Assembly: GCF_000955905.1 (NCBI RefSeq) | Contig: NZ_CP011097.1 | Span: forward strand, 383,957-447,956 | From: Candidatus Nitrosotenuis cloacae | GTDB lineage: Archaea; Thermoproteota; Nitrososphaeria; Nitrososphaerales; Nitrosopumilaceae | Direction of reading: 5' to 3' | Length of the DNA stretch: 64,000 bases | In this document: piece by piece, positions 7,056-14,876 of the stretch | Numbering within the stretch: position 1 is the stretch's first letter | Layout: every line of letters starts with the position of its first letter | Program-made: the position numbers and the translations under genes | Notes under the pieces: generated by a model | Databases searched by the model: none | What the model was told of the DNA's origin: nothing | What the model saw: the letters and a program-made list of their open reading frames with translations, nothing else

Positions 7056-7060
7056 AATGG

Positions 7061-7151
7061 TGGGCCGAGAGAGATTCGAACTCTCGACCTTTCGATGTCT
7101 GAAAGGTTGTTTTATCAGTCGAACGCTCCAGCCAAGCTGAGCTACCGGCCC
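7061..7151 (-). tRNA. tRNA-Ile (GAT) with a 16-nt intron
   Basis: The acceptor GGGCCGG pairs with TCGGCCC (one G-T pair) and the T arm is GAGAG TTCGAAT CTCTC. The anticodon stem is TTCGA/TCGAA with loop CTGATAA, anticodon GAT. A 16-nt intron (7097-7112) sits after position 37. It makes a strict bulge-helix-bulge: central helix CTGA/TCAG with 3-nt bulges TAA and ACA, cut between their second and third bases. Confidence 0.95.
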
Positions 7152-13013: not shown

Positions 13014-14641
13014 TCACTCTATATCTTTCAAGGCTGCAAAAAATAATCGGCAAGACAAACAAAAACAAGATAATTGATGCTTTACCGTTTTTGGGACTCG
13101 ACATTGAGGAGCAGACAGACCAATACATTCGAGTAGAGTACAGTCCTAATCGACCCGACTATGCAACAGATGTCGGAATTGCAGCAGGCCTACAGGGCTT
13201 GCTTGGAATCAAAAAAGGAATCTCAAAACTAGACATAAAAAAGCAAAAAGACAAGTCGTTTCTGATTAAAACAAGTCCTGCAGTAAAAAAAATCCGCCCC
13301 CACGTCTTGGGGTTGGTTGCCAAGGGCTCTAATCTTGATGATGAGGCAATCAGGCAACTAATTGCACTGCAGGAAGACCTTCACTTTGGAGTGGGGAGAA
13401 AACGAAGAAAGGCCTCAATTGGAATTCATGACTTTGATGCAATAAAACTACCACTACAGTACACCGCAGTATCAAAAGATCACAAGTTTGTTCCACTAGC
13501 AACACAAAATGAAATGTCAGTAAAACAAATTCTAGAAGAAACCGGTACTGGGCAAGACTATTCTGGAATACTTGGCACGGGGCACAATGTTCCAATGATT
13601 TTAGACGCTAATGGAAATACAGTATCATTCCCACCAATTATCAATTCTGCACTGACTACCATATCAACAAAAACAAAGAATCTGCTGATTGAGGTTACTG
13701 GCAATGATCAAAGCGCAGTGGCAGATACGCTCTCTGTTGTTGCCTCTGCCTTGCAAGGCTTGGGATTTACTCTATATGATTTCAAGACTGATCTGAAAAG
13801 CTCTTCAGATTATCTAAAAACAAGAACCATTCTCTTGGATCCTATTCTAGTAAACCAAACACTTGGCTTGCAGCTATTGCCATCACAAATTTGTATGATG
13901 TTGCAAAAATGTAGGCTGGATGCAACCGCAAAGGGCAAAAAAATCACATGTGTGATTCCGAGATTTAGATTTGATATTTTTGGTCCAATGGATCTAGTAG
14001 AAGAAGTTGCACTGGGATTTGGAATTCAAAATCTTGGGCCAACCCTACCGGCATCAGTCAGTGTTGGACAAAAAAGTAAAACTACGCTAGAATTGGACAA
14101 GCTAAGTCAAATTCTAGTAGGTCTTGGCTTTACAGAGGCGCTCAACTCATCACTTACTAGCAAGCAGGTTCTGTATGATCACACAAATCGAGACTCACAA
14201 AATCTAATCGAAGTGGCAGAATCAAAAAGCCAAGAATACACCATACTGCGTGATTCCATATTGCCTGGATTACTTGAGAATCTGTCTCGAAACATACACG
14301 AAACATATCCACAAAAACTCTTTGAGACTGGAACTGTTTTCTCAAAAGGCAACCCAATCAAGGAATCGATTTGCCTTGCATGTCTTAGCGCACACAAAGA
14401 CGCAGGCTATACTGAGATCAAATCCATACTACAATCACTACTAAAGACTGATTCAAACATTGAATGTAAAACAAAAACAGCGGAAAGTCCAATGTTTGCA
14501 AAAGGCAAAACAGCTGATATCGTGATCAATGATAAAAAAATAGGCATAATTGGTGAGATTGATTCACAAGTAATTGATAATTTCAAAATACGCGTTCCTG
14601 TAAGCGGATTTGAGATAATCCTGTCTGGTTCTGTCTTGTGA
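13004..14641 (+). CDS. pheT: phenylalanyl-tRNA synthetase beta subunit
   Basis: The beta subunit forms the (alpha-beta)2 PheRS and carries the B3/B4 editing and B5 domains. The start is ATG 13004 (MPVVTLYLSRL), inside the end of pheS; the longer frame at 12983 is rejected. The product is 545 residues, the archaeal/eukaryotic length. Visible parts are the N-terminal B1 region with SPNRPDYATDVG near residue 46, the GIHDFD region of the B3/B4 editing domain, and the B5-type CVIPRFRFDIFGPMDLVEEV stretch near 311-330. Confidence 0.95.
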   Translation: MPVVTLYLSRLQKIIGKTNKNKIIDALPFLGLDIEEQTDQYIRVEYSPNRPDYATDVGIAAGLQGLLGIKKGISKLDIKKQKDKSFLIKTSPAVKKIRPHVLGLVAKGSNLDDEAIRQLIALQEDLHFGVGRKRRKASIGIHDFDAIKLPLQYTAVSKDHKFVPLATQNEMSVKQILEETGTGQDYSGILGTGHNVPMILDANGNTVSFPPIINSALTTISTKTKNLLIEVTGNDQSAVADTLSVVASALQGLGFTLYDFKTDLKSSSDYLKTRTILLDPILVNQTLGLQLLPSQICMMLQKCRLDATAKGKKITCVIPRFRFDIFGPMDLVEEVALGFGIQNLGPTLPASVSVGQKSKTTLELDKLSQILVGLGFTEALNSSLTSKQVLYDHTNRDSQNLIEVAESKSQEYTILRDSILPGLLENLSRNIHETYPQKLFETGTVFSKGNPIKESICLACLSAHKDAGYTEIKSILQSLLKTDSNIECKTKTAESPMFAKGKTADIVINDKKIGIIGEIDSQVIDNFKIRVPVSGFEIILSGSVL

Positions 14642-14710
14642 TAGTTTCTATCATTCATTCAAAATTGTATTGATTTTCAGGTCTGAATTAATATTTGAGG
14701 GATTCTCAGC

Positions 14711-14876
14711 GTTTTTGCCCTAACAAGGCACACAGACGGACTGGAATGACTATGATGCTAAAACATGATTTTCGGGTCCACCCAGGTGTGCGACATGGGG
14801 CTACCCCGGACACAGAGCATGTTTGAGGAAATAGGCTAATTACCTGTGAGAATGTGTGAGTCAGTGCCGGGGTACA
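14711..14876 (+). ncRNA. candidate structured RNA, tandem H/ACA-like guide
   Basis: This gene-free region is more GC-rich than its surroundings and has two strong hairpins, each followed by ACA. Hairpin 1 has a lower stem GCACAC/GTGTGC (14728-14733 with 14786-14791), an internal loop, and an upper stem GGAC/GTCC (14738-14741 with 14776-14779). ACA is at 14793-14795, 14 nt after the upper stem, the classic pocket-to-ACA spacing. Hairpin 2 has TACCCCGG/CCGGGGTA (14802-14809 with 14867-14874), extended by CAC/GTG, with ACA overlapping its end at 14874. GA-rich apical loops could be kink-turns. A TATA-like TTAATATTT lies near 14689. Archaeal H/ACA RNAs guide pseudouridylation. The class assignment is inference. 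Confidence 0.4.

Follow-up and report, generated by a model that had tools for sequence, protein, structure and literature searches.

The closest described systems to the RNA considered here are archaeal H/ACA guides of the Thermococcales and the halophiles. Pab40 is the same RNA as HgcG, and motifs of the Pa40.3 type target L2016 (PMC4652768, excerpted text); the adjacent stems II and III of HgcG correspond to the hairpins that serve 2586 and 1915/1917 in halophiles, according to the accessible part of PMC2584109. The same part of that paper gives 2586 as an established pseudouridine of archaea for which halophiles have a proposed H/ACA guide, equates Psi2621 of H. marismortui, assigned to a guide hairpin, with E. 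coli 2586, and lists U1915 and U1917 as known archaeal pseudouridines. Productive archaeal guides combine an ACA spacing of 13/14 nt with a 10-nt GA stem, as stated in the available portion of PMC4652768. Our searches of an open-access library turned up no account of H/ACA guides from Thaumarchaeota.

We analyzed a 64,000-nucleotide stretch of DNA (the window) from Candidatus Nitrosotenuis cloacae, whose genome is a 1.62-Mb archaeal chromosome. A candidate RNA gene occupies window positions 14717-14876 on the plus strand, in the gap between pheT, which ends at 14641, and an EVE-domain gene (both names come from an earlier note on this window and from recognizable sequence rather than from a family scan). 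Judging from sequence, we put the probability at about 0.87 that this interval is a tandem double-hairpin H/ACA guide RNA, in which hairpin 1 would target U2586 and hairpin 2 would target U1921 of 23S rRNA (E. coli numbering).

Layout of the candidate RNA

The earlier note had proposed two hairpins side by side, each followed by ACA, at 14711-14876. Both hairpins and both boxes lie where it put them and the 3' end holds; the start, however, moves to 14717. The elements run in the order helix P1 5' strand, hairpin 1, ACA, helix P1 3' strand, hairpin 2, ACA:

14688..14696, plus strand: TATA-box-like element TTAATATTT, starting 29 nt before the RNA; putative promoter
14717..14722, plus strand: helix P1, 5' strand GCCCUA, covarying with 14796-14801
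14728..14733, plus strand: hairpin 1 lower stem, 5' strand GCACAC, a covarying helix
14735..14739, plus strand: pocket 1, 5' guide GACGG, complementary to CCGUC of 23S at E. coli 2590-2594
14740..14749, plus strand: hairpin 1 GA stem, 5' strand, ending in a K-turn-like GA (from GA spacing in relatives)
14766..14777, plus strand: hairpin 1 UGAU of the K-turn with the GA stem 3' strand (fold, alignment, covariation)
14780..14785, plus strand: pocket 1, 3' guide ACCCAG, complementary to CUGGGU of 23S at E. coli 2579-2584
14786..14791, plus strand: hairpin 1 lower stem, 3' strand GUGUGC (covariation)
14793..14795, plus strand: ACA box 1, at constant spacing in family RNAs
14796..14801, plus strand: helix P1, 3' strand UGGGGC, covarying with the 5' strand at 14717-14722
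14804..14809, plus strand: hairpin 2 lower stem, 5' strand CCCCGG (fold and alignment)
14814..14816, plus strand: pocket 2, 5' guide AGA, conserved in the alignment, complement of 23S UCU, E. coli 1923-1925
14817..14826, plus strand: hairpin 2 GA stem, 5' strand GCAUGUUUGA (by eye from fold and alignment)
14848..14857, plus strand: hairpin 2 K-turn GA with the GA stem 3' strand (by eye from fold and alignment)
14860..14864, plus strand: pocket 2, 3' guide GUCAG, complementary to CUGAC of 23S at E. coli 1916-1920
14867..14872, plus strand: hairpin 2 lower stem, 3' strand CCGGGG (fold and alignment)
14874..14876, plus strand: ACA box 2, at constant spacing in family RNAs

The lower stem proposed for hairpin 1, GCACAC/GTGTGC, is found at 14728-14733/14786-14791 and covaries among relatives. 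The note's 14 nt from internal loop to ACA is about right: in our model the box follows the A of ACCCA by 13 nt and the pair that closes the GA stem by 15 nt. The 8-bp GC-rich stem described for hairpin 2 is present; as drawn, it overlaps the ACA box and its basal pair is unusable.

The spacing of the ACA boxes was examined in relatives. A blastn match was obtained in 79 of 151 family genomes, and loci from 70 of these 79 were used; two were then dropped (L012, where a contig end cuts hairpin 2, and L033, where hairpin 2 extends into the next gene), leaving 68 family RNAs. ACA box 1 stands 13 nt past the A of ACCCA in 68/68 of them and ACA box 2 stands 14 nt past the G of GUCAG in 68/68, the hairpin-2 pattern allowing 12-14 nt in this set. 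Among distant RNAs, position +13 of hairpin 1 holds ACA in 20 of 21 cases and AUA in one, and position +14 of hairpin 2 holds ACA in 28 of 29 and AUA in one, with a hairpin-2 pattern that fixes the +14 spacing. In the phylum set, ACCCA followed by A.A at +13, a spacing to which the pattern is limited, and preceded by ACGG with G or A before it, occurs in 35 of 39 loci; hairpin 1 is absent from L337, L351, L371, and L372, and L339, L347, L352, and L370 were parsed from a neighboring ACGG. The spacing of the second hairpin, which had been called less ideal, is thus exactly 14 nt from GUCAG. Measured by eye from closing pair to ACA, the window has 15 nt in hairpin 1 and 16 nt in hairpin 2, within the 14-16 nt to ACA (ANA) taken as the criterion for archaeal H/ACA RNAs.

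Kink-turns for L7Ae had also been suggested. Archaeal H/ACA RNAs are expected to have a K-turn or K-loop some 10 bp above the pocket. Scored as a sequence motif only, GACGG is followed at a distance of 8 nt by a K-turn-like GA in 41 of the 46 RNAs (the exceptions are L136 and L138, parsed from the wrong GACGG, and L141, L152, and L161), and the corresponding element of hairpin 2 was recognized by eye; the suggestion is consistent with these motifs. This placement of GA indicates that GACGG is pocket rather than stem and that the GA stem is 10 nt long. In the proposed particle, L7Ae would bind the K-turn of each hairpin, and the Cbf5-Nop10-Gar1 enzyme would sit on the lower stem and ACA box. 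Cbf5 is encoded in the genome (371.5 bits); the Gar1 match, at 28.6 bits, falls just below its cut-off of 29.3.

Predicted targets in 23S rRNA

GACGG is present in all 70 family loci examined and also in distant relatives. Together, ACCCAG and GACGG are complementary to 23S CUGGGU-UUAGA-CCGUC, E. coli 2579-2594 by alignment; the E. coli 23S record is numbered one below standard, and the +1 shift that we applied agrees with the 1915/1917 and 2586 positions in the accessible part of PMC2584109. This target is identical in 40/40 genomes read, with 3 of 43 not covered. Archaeal H/ACA guides usually leave 2 target nucleotides unpaired; hairpin 1 pairs with its target over 6 + 5 bp and leaves 5 nt (UUAGA) between the duplexes instead. 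The distance of 14 nt to ACA puts the top of the pocket opposite U2585, and U2586 is therefore the predicted site. In this arrangement, GACGG and ACCCAG would pair on either side of uridines of the peptidyl transferase center and U2586 would be converted to pseudouridine. The pattern CUGGGU-N2..5-CCGUC occurs once in rRNA and 0 times in 128 kb of window sequence; for a shorter core form, 0.035 occurrences are expected in rRNA.

Hairpin 2 fits CUGAC-U-C-UCU in helix 69 with 2 unpaired nucleotides. GUCAG would pair with 1916-1920 and AGA with 1923-1925, so placing U1921 for conversion to pseudouridine, with U1923 possible too. The pattern CUGACU-N-UCU is found once in rRNA and twice in 128 kb, with 0.07 expected in rRNA. 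GUAACUCUGACUCUC is present in 38/38 genomes read (5 of 43 not covered), and position 1921 is U in all 38 of these Nitrososphaeria genomes; the Rfam archaeal consensus, GUAACUaUGACCCuCuUAAgG, has C there. Positions 1921 and 1923 correspond to yeast 25S Psi2264 (snR3) and Psi2266 (snR84) in the portion of PMC8307265 available, the yeast/E. coli offset being taken from the 2258=1915 pair in the accessible part of PMC2584109. As a separate observation, the 23S genes of several relatives carry an insertion just after the predicted hairpin-2 target (L081, L082, L092, and L093, from G050, G034, G057, and G058; also L177/L189 and L180/L190, from G206 and G228), seen as split matches and interrupted GUAACUCUGACUCUC reads (UUAAGGUA); it is probably an intron.

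In the window, GUCAG alone forms a weak duplex (-4.7 kcal/mol); many distant RNAs have GUCAGAG, which pairs with 1914-1920 at -9.2 kcal/mol. The same RNA might instead direct hairpin 2 to U1923, with GAGUCAG on 1916-1922, or to U1917, with GAGU on 1913-1916, and we regard this as a substantial possibility at somewhat less than even odds. Positions 14858-14859 of the window together with GUCAG do read GAGUCAG, a duplex of 7 bp and -9.2 kcal/mol, and GA precedes GUCAG in 59 of the 68 family RNAs, which fits U1923; U1917, on the other hand, is among the known archaeal pseudouridine positions U1915 and U1917 (PMC2584109, accessible part), and hairpin 2 of other phylum classes, which has GUGUUAGU or GGUUAC with GAGAGA, fits U1917 by eye. 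However, both sites require 16 nt rather than 14 from the top of the pocket to ACA, the 2 nt before GUCAG vary in distant Nitrososphaeria although GUCAG itself is kept in 26 of 29 RNAs, and the GAGU duplex for U1917 is weak (-2.1). From these sequence features, U1921 is the most likely target of pocket 2, ahead of U1923 and U1917. If the other classes do direct hairpin 2 to U1917, then Nitrososphaeria shifted the target.

A pocket scan against 16S and 23S rRNA had been proposed as a check. A free scan over many offsets did not exceed shuffled guides, with a best score of 28.5 for hairpin 1 against a shuffled-guide median of 27.5 and a best of 25.0 for a hairpin-2 variant against 25.0; narrower patterns, chosen after the invariant pocket letters had been seen, hit the U2586 and helix 69 sites. 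The assignment of targets thus rests on pocket invariance, spacing, and known pseudouridine sites rather than on the strength of the duplexes by itself. The target sequences are invariant, so guide-target covariation is not visible.

An H/ACA-shaped RNA could also act as a chaperone of rRNA folding or processing rather than as a pseudouridylation guide. In eukaryotes, snR30-type RNAs are such chaperones. The 5-nt gap between the hairpin-1 target duplexes, in place of the usual 2, would suit this role, as would the position of both targets in the ribosome core and the closure of P1 over ACA box 1. We nevertheless consider it improbable, since the exact 13/14-nt ACA spacing and the 10-nt GA stem are typical of productive guides (PMC4652768, excerpted text) and 2586 is a known pseudouridine in halophiles (PMC2584109, accessible part).

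Conservation, setting, and covariation

Covariance model R1, built from 25 sequences, matches 226 of 350 class genomes, and the broader model R2 matches 126 of 398 phylum genomes, families outside the class included. Carriers among the matches listed include Nitrosopumilus, Nitrosarchaeum, Nitrosotalea, and Marine Group I records. A pattern scan of genome contigs gave at least 119 stretches, which were then checked for ACA and hairpin 2; the genuine stretches among the matches listed belong to Thaumarchaeota, and pattern matches in Thermococcus (L232), Methanorbis (L191), and a Euryarchaeota record (L245) have no ACA and were set aside as chance. Seven loci of family f3 (L144, L146, L148, L156, L159, L160, and L162) and L155 (G004) keep hairpin 2 and are without the GACGG/ACCCA guide; there, the 2586 guide has apparently been lost, or another RNA replaces it. 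These loci indicate that the two units evolve separately. In G188, an inserted stretch splits hairpin 1 from hairpin 2, giving two matches (L147/L163).

The RNA lies in a gene gap, and PheT coding sequence is present in its flank at 65 of 69 loci of the family, at 24 of 30 distant ones, and at 18 of 40 in the phylum set. This setting would accommodate a cis-acting element, either a pheT 3' untranslated region or a leader of the EVE gene. We find that explanation very unlikely: the RNA is retained in many relatives, among them several genera, in which the EVE gene is missing from the gap (e.g., L013-L017, L019-L031), PheT was not found in the flank of 6 of the 30 distant loci, and a TATA-like element keeps its distance, with TTAATAT starting 29 or 30 nt ahead of 43 of the 68 family RNAs. 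The putative role of this element as promoter of the RNA is suggested by its sequence and position. In many relatives, TTAATATTTGA (window 14684-14699) also forms the last PheT codons (GLIFD-stop, by eye). PheT of the window stops earlier, at 14641, and the distance from element to RNA is unchanged, which fits a promoter role. A scan for bacterial-type promoters and terminators returned nothing on the plus strand. Transcription of the guide RNA would probably start at a promoter of its own, directly downstream of pheT.

Folding of the window RNA alone gives z = -1.94, with 7 of 200 shuffles equally good, and the opposite strand has no structure signal (z = -0.43). Although the window value is modest, chance hairpins in a gene gap are refuted by conservation, covariation, and fixed spacing. 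Relatives fold far more distinctly (L334, z = -6.86; L141, z = -5.62; 0/200 shuffles each). We measured covariation on 36 model-aligned sequences (35 distinct), an alignment fitted to the structure and hence leaning toward it: 98.1% of cells are paired vs. 95.5% after shuffling (0/500), pairing falls to 27-60% when the 3' partners are slid, and double-change cells number 30 vs. 11.0 in shuffles (0/500), so that the check across relatives that the earlier note had proposed came out in its favor. Both the lower and the upper stem of hairpin 1 covary clearly; the lower stem of hairpin 2 is near-invariant in this set, with 6 of 7 pairs never varying. The sequence of the upper stem is replaced in distant relatives, whereas GACGG (AACGG in three) and ACCCA are retained. 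The comparative evidence is much stronger than the single-sequence fold. Together, the ACA spacing, covarying stems, invariant pockets, GA motif, and 23S complementarity support the double H/ACA reading.

Comparison of relatives adds a feature to the earlier reading, the outer helix P1 (GCCCUA/UGGGGC), which covaries and encloses hairpin 1 together with ACA box 1. P1 lies outside the covariance model and was tested separately. The best helix joining the two flanks is longer when both come from one genome than when they come from different genomes, 6.83 vs. 4.46 (n = 26; 0/2000 permutations), and in a second set 6.77 vs. 5.36 (n = 35; 0/2000 permutations). Taken singly against shuffled flanks, 16 of 46 family members exceed the 95% level; P1 is too short to beat shuffled flanks in many members, and the claim therefore rests on the permutation tests. 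Examples are GGCUUUCGUC/GACGAAAGCC in L141 and GUCCCUAUC/GAUAGGGAC in L150. The textbook H/ACA layout has a free ACA tail; an ACA box inside a closed helix is unlike it and is an unusual feature of this RNA. Closed over hairpin 1 and ACA box 1, P1 may have a part in protecting the RNA or in its processing. Hairpin 2 and its ACA are likewise surrounded by an outer helix in other classes (L334, L335, L350, L361), an analogous 10-bp helix in the fold of L334 and arms of the AGGUGAAGUGA/UCACUUCACCU type, by eye, in L350 and L361.

Relation to known RNA families

Rfam gave no significant match for the window RNA, and the match to another known family that would have spoken against the H/ACA reading did not appear. 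Scores on the window region for snoU13 (15.8 bits vs. 46, E 0.49) and Bacilli-1 (12.9 bits) were taken as chance. RNase P RNA (RF00373) and archaeal SRP RNA (RF01857), for which exclusion had been proposed, each have a single match elsewhere in the genome, at 1074413-1074693 and 121160-121470, respectively. Elsewhere in the window, 7058-7151 on the minus strand is called by ARAGORN as a tRNA of undetermined anticodon (Rfam tRNA 7061-7151) and probably contains an intron. In the phylum set, minus-strand tmRNA-like matches in archaeal genomes (L335 557-732, L350 597-757, L361 623-794) score 27.3-30.1 bits against a gathering score of 47, with E down to 1.6e-8, and may be tRNA-like genes with introns.

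The only Rfam family that matches relatives at the RNA itself is RF00064, HgcG (Pab40), always below threshold: 17.6 bits in L139 (E 0.81) and 20.9 bits in L369 (E 0.069 among 14 loci, 0.00053 alone). Its gathering score of 77 bits was not reached; the window has no match, and 20.9 bits is the best among relatives. On sequence grounds, we take the RNA to be a divergent relative of stems II-III of Pab40; descent is not proven. A fuller proposal, which we hold tentatively and just short of even odds, is that a phylum-wide relative of the Pab40 tandem, absent from Rfam, carries an H/ACA unit, ACA box included, inside P1 and has had hairpin 2 retargeted from U1915/U1917 to U1921 in Nitrososphaeria. 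Rfam misses the RNA throughout the loci tested. The targets assigned here predict pseudouridines in the peptidyl transferase center and in helix 69 for archaea that are abundant in the ocean and in soil, and the enclosed ACA box bears on the assembly and processing of H/ACA particles. If true, the helix 69 shift would allow the retargeting of a guide to be traced, at a position that is modified in eukaryotes and is C, not U, in the archaeal consensus.

Compared with Pab40/HgcG/Pf7 of Thermococcales (Pyrococcus), which has three hairpins, the RNA has two. In hairpin II of HgcG, which has AACCC, the A of ACCC precedes ACA by 13 nt (by eye), as in hairpin 1 here; hairpin III has GUGUUAC, and there ACA comes 14 nt past the G of GUUAC (by eye), the distance found in hairpin 2. 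The Nitrososphaeria hairpin 2 has GUCAG instead of GUUAC, and a different helix 69 uridine is predicted. The part of the HgcG structure that is shown has no enclosing helix drawn, whereas P1 is present here. HP1/HP2 of Haloferax volcanii (Hvo1/Hvo2) have the same proposed targets, 2586 and helix 69 (accessible parts of PMC2584109 and PMC4652768); the halophile hairpins are separated by a long spacer, whereas those described here are adjacent, and the two are likened by published description. The yeast RNAs snR3 and snR84 are eukaryotic H/ACA snoRNAs that modify the equivalents of 1921 and 1923 (PMC8307265, available portion); the likeness lies in the target, shared by prediction only, and eukaryotes pseudouridylate the 1921-equivalent site with a different guide. 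Set beside these systems, the RNA is ordinary in kind and new as a family; what is unusual about it is the enclosed ACA box and the predicted retargeting within helix 69.
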